Assembly (NCBI GenBank): GCA_016744115.1 | Contig: JADGEZ010000005.1 | Location: 1-64,000 of the forward strand | Direction: 5' to 3' | Length of the DNA stretch: 64,000 bases | Source of the DNA: Sulfurimonas sp. | Lineage (GTDB): Bacteria > Campylobacterota > Campylobacteria > Campylobacterales > Sulfurimonadaceae | In this document: piece by piece, positions 35,232 through 43,444 of the stretch | Position numbering within the stretch: the stretch's first letter is position 1 | How the letters are laid out: the number at the start of each line of letters is the position of its first letter | The notes under the pieces: generated by a model | The model's database searches: none | The model's input: only the letters and a program-made list of their open reading frames with translations | What the model was told of the DNA's origin: nothing | Position numbers and translations under genes: made by a program

Positions 35232-36662
35232 TTATTTACTAGCTTTAAGTATGTCTAGTTTCGGAAATGTAAACACAGCATCTCTATAAACAACAACATC
35301 TTTTCTATCTAAAGAATACGCTCTAATCTTAATAGGGATAAGAGTATCTCCTCGGTTATTTTTAGATAAAACTTCTGTAGTTCTTAAGATAACAACTTTC
35401 TTCTTTTTTATACCTGGAACTGCTGTAAATTCTTTTCTAGGTTTAGCGATAATAATTTTTCCCTCCATCCCTTTTGGTGGGATAACTTCAAAATAAAATT
35501 TCATTGTTTTATTTTGTGTATTTTGCAGTAAAAAGACATAGGCATTATCAACTCTTACCTTACCATCGGGCATAAGTTTTGTAGAATATACTCTAGATTC
35601 TTTGTTGATATTTAACAACATATTTTCTTTTGTCGAACCCATCATTGCTAAGATAACCATAAGACCAACAAGTAAAGCTATGTAGCCGAGTATTTTTGCA
35701 CGAAAAAATTGTGTTTTACCTTTTTTCTCTATCACTTCATACTCACTTGACCAAGTCACTAAAGATGGTTTTCCTAGTTTTCCCATAACGGTAGTACAAG
35801 CATCAACACATTCAAGGCAGTTTATACACTCTAGTTGTAAGCCTTTGCGAATATCAATATGCGTAGGACAAATTGTCACACAAGACTCACAAGTAGTACA
35901 CTCAGCATGAGATTCATCCGATTGAAGGTCTTTTTGTTTTGTGTATTGTTTATCATGATTATCATCATAAATATGCCCACCACGATGTGTATTATAAAGA
36001 GACATAACTGTATGTTCATCATACAAAACAGATTGAATACGAGAATAAGGACAAATATAAGAACAAAAATCTTCTTTTAAAAATACGATGTCATAGACAA
36101 GAAACAATGCAATACCTGTCATTATCCCAATAAGTGCCCAATGGTTTTGATAGTCAGCTAAATATACAAAAAAATCTTCTGGAGGAACAAAAAACCAGAG
36201 AAAGTTTGACGCAGCTAAATAACTAGCAAAAAAAGCAATGAGTATCGCTATGGCTTTTTTAACCTTGTTTTTAGTCAAAGTCATATCTGGTTCTTTTTGC
36301 TTGTTTTTAATATTTTTACGCATTCCAAGAATTTTAGTTTCTATCAAATCACGATAGATGGCTCGAAAAGCAGTTTGAGGACAAACCCATCCACAAAAGA
36401 CACGCCCACCCATGGCGGTCATCCCAAAGACTCCAAGAAACATAAACATAAGTAAGAATGGCATAAGATACAACTCTTGCATATCAAACTGAACAAATGC
36501 TAAATGTAGCTTCAATTTATCAAAACTTAAAAGGAAAAAATGATTTCCATCAATAGTTATCCATGGTAAAATTATAATAAATAATGTTGCAATAAAATAC
36601 ATATAATATCGCTTAATTCTCCATTTCATCGGTATTTTATAGACTTCTTTTTTTTCACTCAT
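35232..36662 (-). CDS. ccoG: Cytochrome cbb3 oxidase maturation protein, polyferredoxin
   Basis: This 476-aa membrane protein has about five spans. Iron-sulfur and metal motifs are GRVFCGWVCPQTAFRAIYRD, FCSYICPYSRIQSV, and two [4Fe-4S] clusters CTTCESCVTICP and CINCLECVDAC, followed by an Ig-like periplasmic tail. CcoG (FixG, RdxA) reduces Cu(II) for the assembly of cbb3 oxidase. The ATG at 36662 forms a TGATG overlap with the preceding stop and follows AAAGGGG; a GTG three bases earlier is also possible. The ccoNOP genes are not in the window. Confidence 0.92.
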   Translation of the reverse strand: MSEKKEVYKIPMKWRIKRYYMYFIATLFIIILPWITIDGNHFFLLSFDKLKLHLAFVQFDMQELYLMPFLLMFMFLGVFGMTAMGGRVFCGWVCPQTAFRAIYRDLIETKILGMRKNIKNKQKEPDMTLTKNKVKKAIAILIAFFASYLAASNFLWFFVPPEDFFVYLADYQNHWALIGIMTGIALFLVYDIVFLKEDFCSYICPYSRIQSVLYDEHTVMSLYNTHRGGHIYDDNHDKQYTKQKDLQSDESHAECTTCESCVTICPTHIDIRKGLQLECINCLECVDACTTVMGKLGKPSLVTWSSEYEVIEKKGKTQFFRAKILGYIALLVGLMVILAMMGSTKENMLLNINKESRVYSTKLMPDGKVRVDNAYVFLLQNTQNKTMKFYFEVIPPKGMEGKIIIAKPRKEFTAVPGIKKKKVVILRTTEVLSKNNRGDTLIPIKIRAYSLDRKDVVVYRDAVFTFPKLDILKASK

Positions 36663-37315
36663 CACTTTACCCCTTTTTCATTTGGACAAACTATAGAATT
36701 TATAAGTTTATCTTGCGAATTTTCTGACACATCTACTAATAAAGAACTTGAAACAACTTGTTTTAACTCACGAGAATCTATATAATCCTTAAGTGAGCTT
36801 CTACTAACATCTAACCTTCTTGCCATCTCGCTCACGCTTTTTTTGTCTTTTATAAAAACAATAATCTCAGAAATGTATTGATCAAACTTAGAACTAGATT
36901 TACTTCCTTTAGGTCTGCCAATAAGTTTTTTACCTTGTATTTGTAAGGTTTGACGAAGTTGATCTATTAAGGCGAAAATTAACATCGCTTCACTTTGTCT
37001 TGTTATTATAACAGATTGTTTTATAAAATGAACCTTTGAATGATGTTTTAAAAGACAAGAAAACATTTCTGCTACATCTTCCATATTTGAGCTTAAAACC
37101 CATGTATCATATATAAGTATAGTTGCTCCATCTTGAGATTGAAAGTTACTTGTTACATGAGTTCTCTCATCTAATCTTTTATTTTGCGAGACATGATCTA
37201 TAAACTGTTCATCAATCTTTATACCATTGGCAATCGCATAAGCGTTAATAACTTTAAGCTGCTCTCCTGCAGGATGAAAATATTTATCTGCTCTTATGTA
37301 GGCTATAGTTTTCAT
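36662..37315 (-). CDS. Serine-recombinase-like DNA-binding protein lacking catalytic residues
   Basis: This 217-aa protein has the full layout of a small resolvase/invertase. The N-terminal domain is MKTIAYIRADKYFHPAGEQL ... IDEQFID, and a Hin-like helix-turn-helix follows the linker GRPKGSK (SVSEMARRLDVSRSSLKDYI). The active-site serine of YxRxS is replaced by Asp (YIRAD). The LDRLGR stretch reads YDTWVLSS, losing both arginines, and the AER helix motif is absent. It is therefore unlikely to cut DNA and is better read as a transcription factor. A perfect palindrome covers its own promoter. It overlaps ccoG by one base. Confidence 0.75.
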   Translation of the reverse strand: MKTIAYIRADKYFHPAGEQLKVINAYAIANGIKIDEQFIDHVSQNKRLDERTHVTSNFQSQDGATILIYDTWVLSSNMEDVAEMFSCLLKHHSKVHFIKQSVIITRQSEAMLIFALIDQLRQTLQIQGKKLIGRPKGSKSSSKFDQYISEIIVFIKDKKSVSEMARRLDVSRSSLKDYIDSRELKQVVSSSLLVDVSENSQDKLINSIVCPNEKGVK

Positions 37316-37344
37316 TTTAGCGGTTAAACTCCATTTATATAAGG

Positions 37345-37384
37345 TTTAATCGTCATTATAGTTAAATATGACGATTAAAGTCAA
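37345..37384 (-). promoter_or_regulatory. Promoter with overlapping 12-bp palindromic operator
   Basis: On the minus strand TTGACT (37384-37379) and TATAAT (37360-37355) are 18 bases apart. Inverted repeats TTTAATCGTCAT (37345-37356) and ATGACGATTAAA (37368-37379) are perfect 12-bp arms, 11 bases apart. One arm fills the spacer next to the -35 and the other overlaps the downstream edge of the -10. The predicted transcript starts near 37348, 33 bases before the recombinase-like gene. Autorepression is the natural reading. Confidence 0.7.
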
Positions 37385-37731
37385 GTATGCTATATTACCC
37401 ATACAAGTTCCTTTTCTAAAGGCGTTCGAGCATAGTCTATCTTATTTAGTCTTGAGTTTTTGTCTTGGGTAAATCTCTATTTTGCTGTTTAGAAATAGTT
37501 TCAATATTTCTTAAGTAGGAACTGTGTAGTATATTTATATGATTTATTTTTCTAGTATTAGAGTGATAGGCTTTTGAGGTTATTCAAATTCTTATATGGT
37601 GTAAAGACTTTACTATGATGATTCTAAACTGTCACCTTTATAACTTTAACTAGATTAATACTTCTTTTAAAAAGTCACAAAACTTTAAAAAAAGATGAAT
37701 TAGTCATAAAAAAATTACACGAGGATACAAA
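37385..37731. other. Divergent intergenic region before the FixH/Cus operon
   Basis: This gene-free stretch lies between divergent units. I see no reading frame or clear promoter boxes. ATGATGATTCTAAA at about 37615-37628 resembles one arm of the operator ATGACGATTAAA, but the match is weak. CGAGGA, before the ATG at 37732, is the ribosome binding site of the next gene. Confidence 0.4.
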
Positions 37732-38112
37732 ATGAAATCAATTACAAAACTAGCCTTAGCACTTCTTCTAGGGGCGTCTTTACTTCAAGGTGCTGCCTTT
37801 GAGAAAGTTGCAAAATCTCGTGCTACACAAGTTCATCTAAGTTGCGAGAAACCACTCACTACTGGTAACAATACGATAAATTTTGAAGTAGGACATAAAA
37901 ATTACAAAGATGCCAAGATGAGCGTAAAAATCTTCATGCCAGCGATGCCAGGTATGCCATATATGGAAAGTATAAGCGAGTCAAAGAGTTTAGGTGATGG
38001 TAAATTCACAACAAATATAAATATTTCTATGTCTGGAACATGGCAAGTGCATATCTTTTTAACTCCAAAAAGTGGTAAAAAAGTAAGAGCTAAAACATCG
38101 TTTAATATATAA
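37732..38112 (+). CDS. FixH/YtkA-like periplasmic protein
   Basis: This 126-aa exported protein has a signal peptide (ITKLALALLLGASLLQGAA) and an Ig-like YtkA/FixH fold. It carries a methionine-rich motif, MPAMPGMPYM, and a C-terminal SGTWQVHIFLTPKSGKK. Such domains are found beside copper transporters and cbb3 maturation genes. The Met-rich loop suggests Cu(I) or Ag(I) binding. It heads the operon with the TolC/CusB/CusA genes, 11 bases before the next. Confidence 0.75.
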   Translation: MKSITKLALALLLGASLLQGAAFEKVAKSRATQVHLSCEKPLTTGNNTINFEVGHKNYKDAKMSVKIFMPAMPGMPYMESISESKSLGDGKFTTNINISMSGTWQVHIFLTPKSGKKVRAKTSFNI

Positions 38113-38123
38113 AACTTAGAGAA

Positions 38124-39317
38124 ATGAAACTCTTATTATCACTTGCATTTCCCTTATTGCTTTTGGCGATACCCTTAGAAGTTCTTATAGAAAATGCAAA
38201 AAATAATCATACTTCTTTAAAGTCTTTAGAACAAAGAGTATCAATGCTTGATAATGATTTAGAGATGAGCAAAAACTTTGTAGACCCAATGCTATCCTTA
38301 ACCGTGAGTGATGTTCAGTTGGATGATATAGCTAATCGTTCTCTTGAGAGAATGCAATACCTTGCCTTAAATTTTCAACAAAAAATTCCATATTTTGGAA
38401 AAAGAGATGCTTTAGCCAAGAGAATAAATGCAAGAAAAGTAAAAGAGATTTTAAGTATAGATGAGATGCGAGTGAAGCTAGTTCGTGAAATAAAAATAGC
38501 AGCGTTTTCTATCTGGCAAAAAGAAGAGGGGCTAAAAATTACACAAGAGTATATACGCCTCACAAAACAAAATATAGAACTATACTCTACACTAAGTAGA
38601 AGTGATTCTCTCTCTCACATGAGTATAATGTCCGCTGAAATGACACTTTCCCAACTTAAGATCAAACGGAGTAGATTGGAGAGTTCTTTAAAAGTAGAGT
38701 ATCAAAAAATCTCCTATTTAAGTGAAATGGAAGTAGATACTGTAGAGATGGATATGAAAATGTACAAGCCAAAAGACTTAGAACAGTATATTGATAATAA
38801 AAATTTTAATATATCTTACAAAATAAAAAAAGCGAGTTTAAAAGAAGCAAATGAGGATGTAAAAGTTCAAGAGTTAAATTACTATGCTGATCCTATTCTT
38901 AGTCTTGGATATTTTCGTAGAGAGTCTTTTGAGGATTATATAAACATCGGTATAGCCTACTCTTTGCCAATATACGGCACACAAAATGCCCTAAGTGAAA
39001 AATCAAGAAAAGTTGTTTTAGCTAAGAAAAGTGAAGTGCTAAATTTTGATAATCTAGTACTGTCTCAAATACATCAAGTGTATGCAAAAATTCAGAGTGC
39101 TTATGCTGTTCATACTATCATAAAAGATGAGAGTATGCCGCAGATTGAGCATATGTTTGATTTAAGTTCTAGTTCTATTAAAAGTGGTGATGAGCTTTTT
39201 TTATATATAGAGCTTTTGGAGAAAAAACTCTCTCTTGATGAGAAAAATATTGGAGTAGTAGCCGTGTATCATAAAAATATTGCCTCCTTAGAAGCTCTAG
39301 TTGGAGAAATGAAATGA
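38124..39317 (+). CDS. TolC-family outer-membrane efflux protein (CusC-like)
   Basis: This 397-aa protein starts with a signal peptide (LLLSLAFPLLLLAIP). It has the long alpha-helical, repeated layout of outer-membrane efflux proteins (IENAKNNHTSLKSLEQRVSM and later KKSEVLNFDNLVLSQIHQVY). It would form the outer-membrane channel of the tripartite pump. It overlaps the adaptor gene by four bases (ATGA). Specificity for copper or silver comes from the neighbours, not from this protein. Confidence 0.82.
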   Translation: MKLLLSLAFPLLLLAIPLEVLIENAKNNHTSLKSLEQRVSMLDNDLEMSKNFVDPMLSLTVSDVQLDDIANRSLERMQYLALNFQQKIPYFGKRDALAKRINARKVKEILSIDEMRVKLVREIKIAAFSIWQKEEGLKITQEYIRLTKQNIELYSTLSRSDSLSHMSIMSAEMTLSQLKIKRSRLESSLKVEYQKISYLSEMEVDTVEMDMKMYKPKDLEQYIDNKNFNISYKIKKASLKEANEDVKVQELNYYADPILSLGYFRRESFEDYINIGIAYSLPIYGTQNALSEKSRKVVLAKKSEVLNFDNLVLSQIHQVYAKIQSAYAVHTIIKDESMPQIEHMFDLSSSSIKSGDELFLYIELLEKKLSLDEKNIGVVAVYHKNIASLEALVGEMK

Positions 39318-40294
39318 GATTTTTATTATTAATAATGACACTTATATTAACATCTGTTCATGCGAGAGAAGCGACTGTACAACAGTTATTTAATGTTGTG
39401 ACTGTAAAAGTTGAACAAAATAATCATGCCAAAAGTATGAATAGTTTTGGTTTTGTTAAAGTGGATGAATCAAGAGTTTATGATGTAAGTCCAAGGTTTG
39501 GAGGTTTTGTAGAAATCCTTTATGCAGATAAGATTTACAAGAAAGTGAGCAAGGGGGAAACTTTAGCAAAAGTATATTCTCCTGAAGTTTTAAAAGCTAA
39601 AGATGAGTATGCTACCTCTTTGCTGTACTCAAAAAATAAGGCTATGGTTGAGAGTGCTATGACAAAGCTACATCTCTTAAAAGTACCAAAAAACGAGATA
39701 AACGCAAAGTTAAAAAATAGAGATTTTACCACCATCATTTCACCTACGAATGGATATATCTTTAAAAAAAATCTTAACAACAACTCAGCATTTTCTGCAA
39801 AACAAGTTCTTTTTGAGATTGTAAATTTAGATACTGTATGGGTTGAGGTAAATATCCATCAAAACCAACTAAGACTTTTAAAAGGGGTTGATACATTCAT
39901 CTTAAAAACTCCCTCACAAGAAAAAACTTTCACAGCAACAAATAGTGGGATTTATCCAAACCTTGATACAAGCCAAGAGAGTTTTACACTAAGATTAGAA
40001 GTGAAAAATCCAAACTTAGAACTTAAGCCTGGAATGTATATGAGTGTTAGTATAAATCAAAAAAAAGCTACTTACCTTACTCTTCCCTCAACTGCCGTAA
40101 TCCGAAAAAATGGAGTTTTTTATGTTTTTGTAGTTGGAGAGTATGAGGGAGAATACGAACCACTTCAAATAGAAGTAGAAGTTTTAAACCCTGATACTTA
40201 TATAGTGAAAAATGGTCTCATTCAAGGCGATGAAGTTGTAAATAACGCTCTTTTCATGATGGATAGTGATGCCCAAGTAAATGGTTTATATTGA
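39314..40294 (+). CDS. RND efflux periplasmic adaptor (CusB-like)
   Basis: This 326-aa protein has an N-terminal signal (LLLIMTLILTSVHA). The barrel-sandwich hybrid shows in VSKGETLAKVYSPEVLKAKD and ISPTNGYIFKKNLNNNSA, followed by beta-barrel and membrane-proximal parts (LKPGMYMSVSINQKKATYL). It links the inner-membrane pump to the outer-membrane channel. It is shorter than E. coli CusB (407 aa) and lacks the Met-rich N-terminal metal site; the FixH/YtkA-like protein may supply that function (inference). Confidence 0.82.
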   Translation: MRFLLLIMTLILTSVHAREATVQQLFNVVTVKVEQNNHAKSMNSFGFVKVDESRVYDVSPRFGGFVEILYADKIYKKVSKGETLAKVYSPEVLKAKDEYATSLLYSKNKAMVESAMTKLHLLKVPKNEINAKLKNRDFTTIISPTNGYIFKKNLNNNSAFSAKQVLFEIVNLDTVWVEVNIHQNQLRLLKGVDTFILKTPSQEKTFTATNSGIYPNLDTSQESFTLRLEVKNPNLELKPGMYMSVSINQKKATYLTLPSTAVIRKNGVFYVFVVGEYEGEYEPLQIEVEVLNPDTYIVKNGLIQGDEVVNNALFMMDSDAQVNGLY

Positions 40295-40318
40295 TTCATT
40301 ATATTAAAGGATAGAGAT

Positions 40319-43300
40319 ATGATTGAAAAAATAATAGACCTAAGTATAAAAAACAGATTTTTAGTTCTCTTCCTTGCCGTATTCCTTAGTTTCACCTCCT
40401 TTTGGGCTTTGAAAAATACTCAACTTGACGCTATACCAGATCTCTCTCCTCCGCAGGTTATAGTACAACTTAACTGGGCTGGGCAGTCTCCTGAAATTAT
40501 CGAAGATCAAGGAACATATCCCCTTGTATCTGAGTTTTTATCTATCGCTAATATTGAGACTGTTCGTGGTTTTTCAACTTATGAGAATGCTCTTATATAT
40601 ATTATTTTCAAAGAGGGGGTAGATTTATATTGGGCTAGAACTCGTGTTTTAGAACAGTTAGCTTCGATTCAATCCTCTTTACCTGATAACATGGAAGTCT
40701 CTCTAGGACCTGATGCTAGTGGTGTTGGTTGGGTATATGAGTATGCACTTACATCAAAAACGAAAAATTTAGCAGAGCTTAGATCCTTACAAGATTATTA
40801 TTATAAATACGCACTTTTAGGGGTCGATGGAGTAAGTGAAGTTGCCTCAATAGGTGGCTTTGTTCCTACATATCAAGTAAGTGTAAAAAATGAAACACTG
40901 ATTAGATATAACCTCAGCATCCAAGAAGTAGCTGCAACTCTAAAAAACAATAATAACGATACGGGCGGACGGATTGTTATTCAAAACGGCTATGAGTGGA
41001 TGGTTCAAGCTAAAGGTTATGTGAAAAATCTTGATGACATTCGAGCTTTAAGAGTTGCAACAAAAGCAAACACTCCTGTTACAATTGGCGATATTGCAAG
41101 AGTTGAGTTAGTTCCATCAGTTAGGCGTGGTATGGCTGATTTAAATGGAGAGGGTGAAGTTGTTGGGGGAATCGTAATGGTTCGTTATGGCGAGGATGTT
41201 TACTCAACCATTAAGAGAATTGAGAAAAAAATGCTTGATTTAAAAGTTGAGGGGGTTGAGGTTGTTGAGACTTATAACCGTTTAGAGCTTATAGAAAAAG
41301 CGGTGGATACCTTAAAGTTTACCCTTATCGAAGAGAGTGTTATTGTTATTATCATCATAGCCCTTTTCTTGATGCACTTACGCTCTTCAATCATTGTAGT
41401 AATTATTTTACCCCTAACCATTGCAAGCACTTTTTTGCTGATGAAATTTTTTGGGATTGATTCAAATATTATGAGTCTTGGGGGAATTGCTATTGCTATT
41501 GGGGCGATGGTTGATGCTACTATCGTTATGATAGAAAATGCACATAAGACTATCATCAAAACACAAAAGAAAAAAGGAAACTCTCTCACTAAATCAGAAC
41601 GATTTGATGCGATTATAAGTTCTTCTAAAGTTGTTGGTCGTCCTATATTTTTTGCACTCTCTTTAGTGGTTGTTTCATTTTTACCTATCTTTGCACTCTC
41701 AGGTCAAGAGGGTTTACTTTTTACTCCACTAGCCTACACTAAAACATTTGCGATGATGGCAGGAGCAATTTTATCTATCACCTTAGTGCCTATTTTAATG
41801 TTGTATTTTGTAAAGGGGAAAATCTTATCAGAAGATAAAAACCCACTCAACAGATTTTTTATCTGGATTTATACCCCCATCATCGTTTACGGCTTAAAAG
41901 TAAAATATCTCATTATAGTTGCAGTAATCCTATCGCTTGGATATATGTACCCTCTATATGAAGGTCTTAAATGGGAGTTTATGCCACCATTAAATGAGCA
42001 GAGTGTGATGTATATGCCTGTAACTCCCTATGGGATTAGTGTAGATCAGAGTAAAATACTTACCCAAAAAACGGATGCTATTATCAAATCATTTCCTGAA
42101 GTTGATATTGTATTTGGCAAAGGTGGTCGTGCAACTTCGGCTACTGATCCAGCTCCACTTGGGATGATTGAGACTATTATTACCTTTAAGCCAAAAGATG
42201 AGTGGAGGGAGGGGATGACACATGATAAACTAATGTCTGAGCTTGAAGATGCCTTGCAAGTTCCAGGGCTTATAAACTCATGGACTTATCCAATTCGTGG
42301 TCGTATAGATATGCTTTTGAGTGGTATAAGAACGCCCATTGGAATCAAGCTTTATGGTAAAGATGCTCAAGGACTTCAAAAATATGCAAAAGAGATAGAA
42401 TCAGTACTGCGTAAATTTGGACAAACCCTTTCAGTATTCGCAGATCAGGCAAGTGCAGGATACTATCTTGATATTGACATAAATGAAGAGTCTATTGCGA
42501 GATATAGCGTCACTAAGAACTATCTTTTAGAATATGTATCCTCAGCTATTGGGGGGATGAAAATATCTACTATGTATAAGGGAATAGAGCGTTATCCGAT
42601 AGCTTTGCGTTTTGAAGAGGAGGAGAGAAGAAGTATTGATTCGATTAAAGATATCATGATAAAAACTAAATTAGGCTTTGTTCCCCTTGGCACTTTTGCT
42701 AAAATCGCTTATAGAGAGAGTGCCTCTGTGATTAAAAGCGAGATGGCGTCACCTGTTACATTTATATATATCACTCCTCAAATTGGGGTATCTGCTACAG
42801 AGTATAAGCAAAAGGCGAAAAAGTTATTGGCAAGCGTTAAGTTACCTGCTGGTTATTATATAGAGTGGGCAGGGCAAAGTGAGTATCTTGACGCAGCTAT
42901 GGCTAAAATCATTTGGATTATTCCTGCTGTTTTAGTTCTTATATTGATATTAATTTACTTTGCACTTAAAGAGTTAATCCCAACTTTGATAGTATTTTTA
43001 ACTCTCCCCTTTGCACTTCTTGGTGGATTGATGTATATAGAGATTTTAAATTTTAACATGTCCATAGCCGTAGTAGTTGGTTTCTTAGCACTCCTTGGAG
43101 TAGCAGCAGAGACGGCTATAGTGATGATAGTGTATCTACAAGAAGCGGTAGATGAAGCCAAAGAGAAGTTCAAAGATAGCTTTGGAAGAAAAGAATTAAG
43201 AGATGCAATCTATGAGGGTGCAGTTGCAAGAGTTCGACCAAAACTCATGACAGTATTTGCAATTTTAGTAGGACTTTTACCTATCATGTTTATAAACGGA

Positions 43301-43444
43301 GTAGGAAGCGAAGTGATGCAACGCATAGCCGCCCCTATGATAGGAGGAGTTGTAAGTTCTGCTGTTTTAAGTCTTATCATTATTCCGATCTTGTATGATA
43401 GTTATGTTAAGTTTAGTGTTCCTAAACACAAGGCACTTAACTAA
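40319..43444 (+). CDS. cusA: Heavy-metal RND efflux pump (CusA-like)
   Basis: This 1041-aa protein has twelve spans and two large periplasmic loops. It matches the HME-RND family closely: LDAIPDLSPPQVIVQLNWAG near the start, the transmembrane proton-relay stretch GAMVDATIVMIENAHK, and EFMPPLNEQSVMYMPVTPYG in the periplasmic part. It uses the proton gradient to expel monovalent copper or silver; the Met-rich stretches favour Cu/Ag over Zn/Co/Ni. AAAGGA precedes the ATG. The gene ends 26 bases before the convergent radical SAM gene. Confidence 0.88.
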   Translation: MIEKIIDLSIKNRFLVLFLAVFLSFTSFWALKNTQLDAIPDLSPPQVIVQLNWAGQSPEIIEDQGTYPLVSEFLSIANIETVRGFSTYENALIYIIFKEGVDLYWARTRVLEQLASIQSSLPDNMEVSLGPDASGVGWVYEYALTSKTKNLAELRSLQDYYYKYALLGVDGVSEVASIGGFVPTYQVSVKNETLIRYNLSIQEVAATLKNNNNDTGGRIVIQNGYEWMVQAKGYVKNLDDIRALRVATKANTPVTIGDIARVELVPSVRRGMADLNGEGEVVGGIVMVRYGEDVYSTIKRIEKKMLDLKVEGVEVVETYNRLELIEKAVDTLKFTLIEESVIVIIIIALFLMHLRSSIIVVIILPLTIASTFLLMKFFGIDSNIMSLGGIAIAIGAMVDATIVMIENAHKTIIKTQKKKGNSLTKSERFDAIISSSKVVGRPIFFALSLVVVSFLPIFALSGQEGLLFTPLAYTKTFAMMAGAILSITLVPILMLYFVKGKILSEDKNPLNRFFIWIYTPIIVYGLKVKYLIIVAVILSLGYMYPLYEGLKWEFMPPLNEQSVMYMPVTPYGISVDQSKILTQKTDAIIKSFPEVDIVFGKGGRATSATDPAPLGMIETIITFKPKDEWREGMTHDKLMSELEDALQVPGLINSWTYPIRGRIDMLLSGIRTPIGIKLYGKDAQGLQKYAKEIESVLRKFGQTLSVFADQASAGYYLDIDINEESIARYSVTKNYLLEYVSSAIGGMKISTMYKGIERYPIALRFEEEERRSIDSIKDIMIKTKLGFVPLGTFAKIAYRESASVIKSEMASPVTFIYITPQIGVSATEYKQKAKKLLASVKLPAGYYIEWAGQSEYLDAAMAKIIWIIPAVLVLILILIYFALKELIPTLIVFLTLPFALLGGLMYIEILNFNMSIAVVVGFLALLGVAAETAIVMIVYLQEAVDEAKEKFKDSFGRKELRDAIYEGAVARVRPKLMTVFAILVGLLPIMFINGVGSEVMQRIAAPMIGGVVSSAVLSLIIIPILYDSYVKFSVPKHKALN

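Follow-up and report, generated by a model that had tools for sequence, protein, structure and literature searches.

A non-catalytic serine recombinase as the proposed repressor of its own ccoG operon in Campylobacterales

What becomes of a serine recombinase once its chemistry is gone? The question is raised by a gene within the window (the whole stretch of 64,000 nucleotides of Sulfurimonas DNA that was analysed), which encodes a protein of resolvase type, stands directly before ccoG and carries inverted repeats over its promoter. A sequence-only reading of this locus had described the product as a catalytically dead recombinase that probably represses its own promoter through a reused hix-like site, and had suggested a link to copper or respiration. 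The explanation that we favour, and consider likely, is that this non-catalytic, exapted recombinase serves as a transcription factor and represses the ccoG operon to which it belongs. The computed support consists of catalytic-residue loss, fold, synteny, conserved sites, gene-site co-occurrence and vertical inheritance, from which we infer binding, repression, activation and the nature of the signal.

Resolvase fold and catalytic residues

The protein belongs by descent to the serine recombinase superfamily, since its N-terminal resolvase-type fold is recognized both by Pfam Resolvase (25.4 bits, gathering score 23.3) and by structural alignment. An AlphaFold2 model built from an alignment of 74 relatives has a mean pLDDT of 86.5 and superposes on the catalytic domain of gamma-delta resolvase over 115 residues (Z 13.8, rmsd 2.8), and the top Foldseek matches of the model are resolvase-DNA complexes, including those of Tn3 with site III and of gamma-delta (1gdt). 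Among curated names the Mpi invertase model matches best, at 34.5 bits far below its cut-off of 272, and a sequence search of the PDB returned a designed helical repeat as the sole noteworthy match. The complete resolvase/invertase layout noticed in the earlier reading, with a helix-turn-helix (HTH) after GRPKG, is borne out by the model helices and the conserved linker. A C-terminal HTH follows a long helix and a GRPKG-like linker, the GRP and G of which are invariant in the order-wide alignment (n = 74), and helices are predicted at residues 110-130, 143-156, 161-168 and 172-181. The window protein scores below the cut-off of Pfam HTH_7; the HTH is the best-conserved part of the family and is near-invariant among 65 genus and 74 order-wide orthologues.

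Residues were assigned by aligning the family with gamma-delta resolvase (with key residues of the reference checked) and with L075, an intact-looking recombinase from the same genus that served as a second yardstick. Where gamma-delta resolvase has S10, R68, R71 and E124, the window protein has Asp, Val, Ser and Lys, respectively, while R8, Q19 and R45 are retained. Because an aspartate aligns at S10, the catalytic serine is lost rather than shifted, and with the arginines also absent the protein is indeed dead in the sense that had been claimed. Moreover, the loss is common to all of its relatives: R68 and R71 of the LDRLGR motif occur in none of 138 members and Ser10 is absent in 137, so the whole family is dead and the window protein is no local accident. 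The sole member with a Ser aligned at position 10 (L138) lacks R68 and R71 too. R8 is kept in the window protein and in 120 of the 138 members, and R45 in all of them.

Two cysteines, Cys87 and the C-terminal Cys210, are among just 16 invariant columns of the order-wide alignment, and 89 proteins of the family contain exactly two cysteines. This pattern suggests that the protein may sense thiols, redox state or Cu(I) through the pair.

A second degenerate serine recombinase family was encountered in f7 genomes (L163:2989-3660 and L164:2968-3609), with Asn replacing S10, Val replacing R68, and R71 kept. In both genomes the gene lies close to coaD-tmk-hisS, so that this family is apparently chromosomally fixed as well.

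Features of the locus in the window, with strand and basis of assignment
Feature	Position	Strand	Basis
Dead serine recombinase gene, 217 aa	36662..37315	-	ORF, Pfam Resolvase, AlphaFold model
Helix-turn-helix region, residues 143-186	36758..36889	-	Column conservation in 65 genus and 74 order-wide orthologues; helices in model
Asp10 codon, where the catalytic Ser is expected	37286..37288	-	Alignment with gamma-delta resolvase
Invariant Cys87	37055..37057	-	Cys in 138/138 members; invariant column
Invariant C-terminal Cys210	36686..36688	-	Cys in 137/138 members; invariant column
ccoG, cupric reductase for cbb3 oxidase assembly	35232..36662	-	TIGR02745 436 bits, cut-off 316.7
-35 hexamer TTGACT	37379..37384	-	Sequence; TTGAC beside half-site B in orthologues
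-10 hexamer TATAAT	37355..37360	-	Sequence; conserved within genus
Half-site A position (TGACGAAATAA in relatives), degenerate here: CTTGTATGGGT	37397..37407	-	Sequence compared with relatives
Half-site B, TTTAATCGTCA, right behind TTGAC of the -35	37369..37379	-	Conserved order-wide
Half-site C, TGACGATTAAA, right behind the -10	37345..37355	-	Conserved in family f1
Half-site D, TTTAACCGCTA here (consensus TTTAATCGTTA), just 5' of start codon	37318..37328	-	
YtkA-like / outer-membrane efflux / membrane fusion / RND operon opposite the regulator	37732-43444	+	

Distribution and the link to ccoG

Orthologues are present in 64 of 135 Sulfurimonas genomes (a protein search matches 65, one of them weakly), and a profile finds the family in 98 of 397 genomes of the phylum at E values of about 1e-33 or better, with a clear gap down to 3e-13; both are counts in which genes may be hidden in incomplete MAGs. 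Contig scans with the single protein as query gave no match; with the alignment as query they gave 166 stretches, of which 80 were retained, and Sulfuricurvum was among the relatives found.

Directly after the gene and on the same strand comes ccoG, at all loci for which enough DNA is available (with a broken ccoG match in L126). The overlap of the two genes, which had already been noticed, is a single base between the stop codon of the regulator and the ATG of ccoG (TGATG, 36664-36660). CcoG is a cupric reductase for assembly of the cbb3 oxidase, and its loss in C. jejuni cuts oxidase activity by about half (PMC8267372). Since ccoG scores over the cut-off in 127 of the 135 genus genomes and the regulator is found in only about half of them, roughly half of the genus has ccoG without the regulator. 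The sequence-only reading had drawn its suggestion of copper control partly from a Cus-type operon on the opposite strand. That operon is present, but in no other genome examined does it adjoin the regulator, and a connection between the two is unsupported. The link to ccoG is much stronger.

In the gene tree, the host families f1, f8, f9, f10, f11 and f3 form clades, f11 being nested in the f4 clade. The whole family stands apart from other recombinases with a support of 0.93, and the f1 node has a low support of 0.44. Because the tree tracks host families, the catalytic loss appears to be ancient. The pattern fits vertical inheritance of the family, and DNA cleavage is, as judged from these sequences, a function lost in an ancestor of Campylobacterales.

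A 39-bp dyad at the promoter and at other loci

The perfect 12-bp arms 11 nt apart that had been seen over a TTGACT-18-TATAAT promoter are exactly as described. They read TTTAATCGTCAT and ATGACGATTAAA and lie at 37345-37356 and 37368-37379, one inside the 18-nt spacer between the -35 and -10 hexamers and the other touching the -10 edge. Just two such repeats, this one included, occur in the window, against 0.17 per window in first-order simulations, and such a repeat turns up in 0.05% of simulated upstream regions. The exact arm has two copies genome-wide, both at this promoter, so that a search for it elsewhere yields nothing further in the genome; it is the halves of a longer dyad that are conserved before orthologues.

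Upstream regions of the genus orthologues contain four half-sites in alternating orientation, A (TGACGAAATAA), B (TTnnnTCGTCA), C (TGACGATGAAA) and D (TTTAATCGTTA). The conserved unit is TGACGnnnnAA-N17-TTnnnnCGTCA, a dyad of 39 bp with 11-bp halves, the right half adjoining the -35. The 138 upstream regions contain 85 cases of convergent TGACG...CGTCA at exactly 39 bp and 23 more at 38 or 40 bp (108 within one base pair), against a tallest convergent peak of 2 in 200 shuffles. A near-perfect A/B core occurs in 123 of the 138 regions. In Sulfurimonadaceae (f1), a second dyad, C/D, spans +1 to the start codon, and the C to D distance is 39 in 32 of the 47 f1 regions where both were found.

Outside f1, A/B alone persists and C is absent. 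Because C is missing there, and because A/B also recurs alone at a second operon (see below), the operator unit is taken to be the 39-bp A/B dyad and not a hix-like 12-bp palindrome. A/B and C/D are adjacent, and the palindrome thus consists of the facing inner halves, B and C, of two neighboring dyads. The window genome has lost half A and retains D in degraded form, and its C-D outer distance is 38 bp where most relatives have 39. That leaves B and C intact here, which explains why the palindrome drew attention. That the protein controls its own promoter therefore remains most likely, in modified form: paired sites embedding the gene's own promoter, as in res-type systems, are conserved before orthologues across the order, but the unit is different from the one envisaged.

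Covariation between the A and B halves is weak outside f1, its level being reached by 82 of 2000 shuffles in a test confounded by relatedness. Coevolution of the HTH with its site (TCGTCA or TCGCCA with Lys or Arg at position 176) was judged by eye and was not clean enough to retain. Four f4 genomes (L110, L115, L116 and L125) have an extra TGACG half-site about 20 bp 5' of half A, giving three halves, not two.

A second dyad recurs in six f1 genera, about 110 bp 5' of a gene for a small membrane protein. The operon encodes this single-helix protein of about 65 aa and then an M48-type peptidase, the latter named by reading its sequence. The small protein shares the conserved stretch EPxLExIxDYxTLKGEKKxVVW... 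in L246, L255, L269 and L302; it has no match in Pfam or NCBIfam, and an Rfam and tRNA search at the second locus found none. In most of 16 second-target loci a TANNNT box begins 41-42 nt past the dyad, which would place the dyad center near -73, an activator-like position.

Extra dyads lie at L300:2501-2539, before a sulfide:quinone oxidoreductase-like gene, and at L306 and L307:2501-2539, before a c-type-cytochrome-like lipoprotein gene (both genes named by reading the sequence), hinting at a respiratory regulon. Inclusion of ccoNOQP was considered and rejected, as 14 genomes have no dyad 5' of ccoN but only stray half-sites. In the genome of the window itself, further dyad sites number 6 against 7 for the control, no excess over chance.

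Mode of action and relation to known systems

In the mechanism that we propose, a former serine recombinase that lost cleavage in a Campylobacterales ancestor would have become a dedicated transcription factor, its dimer binding the 39-bp dyad, in which a 17-bp spacer separates two convergent TGACGnnnnAA halves. On its own promoter, the dimer would occupy A/B over the -35 and spacer and, in Sulfurimonadaceae, C/D over +1 to the start codon. Because these dyads cover promoter elements, a bound dimer should silence the operon of regulator and ccoG, a case of negative autoregulation. At the small-protein/M48 operon, a dimer bound near -73 could activate. Sensing of a redox, thiol or Cu(I) signal probably falls to the invariant pair of cysteines and would tie expression of the CcoG copper reductase to copper or respiratory state. 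Recombinases bind paired promoter sites, so the step to a repressor is easy in principle.

The same sites might instead allow the protein to activate its own operon, A/B serving much like a class II activator site, though this seems unlikely. The A/B center lies at about -40 from the inferred start, and the placement near -73 at the second operon is activator-like too. However, the -35 and -10 of the operon are near-consensus, with half B in the spacer, and the f1 C/D dyad, reaching from +1 to the start codon, fits blockage.

A little less probable again is that an unrelated regulator of ccoG binds the dyads, with the dead recombinase carried along as a co-regulated passenger, such as an architectural protein or another enzyme's partner. 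Its gene lies within the controlled operon, as that of a passenger would, but the dyad tracks the gene. When genomes were searched for TGACGNNNNAA-N17-TTNNNNCGTCA, with the reversed pattern as control, the 397 phylum genomes yielded 43 that were positive, of which 42 belong to the 98 gene bearers and 1 to the 299 others; the control gave 3 matches in total. Within f1 the dyad is present in 28 of 33 bearers and in none of 18 non-bearers, and in the DNA 5' of ccoG it is present in six of eight bearers and in none of six genomes lacking the gene. Six M48 loci with the small protein but without the gene (two from one genome) also have no site. Loci of this kind in bearers were partly picked by the site itself, so the per-genome counts are the unbiased figures. 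That the HTH is the best-conserved part of the protein also speaks against a passenger.

That the protein still recombines DNA, or assists recombination as a cofactor, with a displaced nucleophile and paired sites used as res-like sites, is highly improbable, for although the paired half-sites over the promoter resemble res, where TnpR autoregulates too (PMC7157771), and R8, Q19 and R45 are retained, no member out of 138 retains R68 or R71, all but one lack S10, and the gene is fixed beside ccoG across families with a phylogeny that tracks the host.

Repression of the ccoG operon by a dead recombinase would make this protein a candidate regulator of ccoG, and hence of copper supply to the cbb3 oxidase, in Campylobacterota. 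With the chemistry lost and a vertically inherited regulator and conserved operators kept across many genera, the transition from recombinase to repressor becomes testable, and the annotation 'recombinase family protein' is probably misleading for some genes of these genomes. On balance we lean slightly toward a broader view, in which an ancient, order-wide family of transcription factors has arisen from a dead serine recombinase, reads a 39-bp operator code of its own, governs a small respiratory regulon and controls CcoG by means of a two-cysteine sensor. Such a class is not described in the part of the literature covered, and a search of this partial coverage, which makes for weak evidence, found no described non-catalytic serine recombinase regulator.

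Among known systems, regulators of the CueR, CsoR and Rrf2 types may share a role with the window protein, namely control of copper or respiratory functions through cysteines, but its fold is unrelated to theirs. The Hin, Gin and Mpi invertases resemble it in the HTH behind a GRPKG linker, and the Mpi model is its best, if sub-threshold, name match. Unlike them, it has lost the catalytic residues, and no invertible segment was seen: the exact 12-bp arm occurs only as the promoter pair, not as a pair of sites flanking a segment. Its half-sites are also spaced far wider than those of hix.

The closest likeness is to TnpR and res of Tn3 and gamma-delta, which share the resolvase fold with a C-terminal HTH, several dyads and a promoter inside the sites. 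Tn3 resolvase autoregulates via res sites containing its own promoter (PMC7157771), and one resolvase dimer tolerates differing spacers, with 9 bp more in Tn3 site II than in site III (PMC9943657). In contrast to TnpR, the family of the window protein has no catalytic Ser or arginines and no transposon, is fixed beside ccoG, and has a dyad length constant at 39 bp, additional sites at other places in the genome and two invariant cysteines. Taken together, it looks like a resolvase of which the regulatory half alone has been retained.
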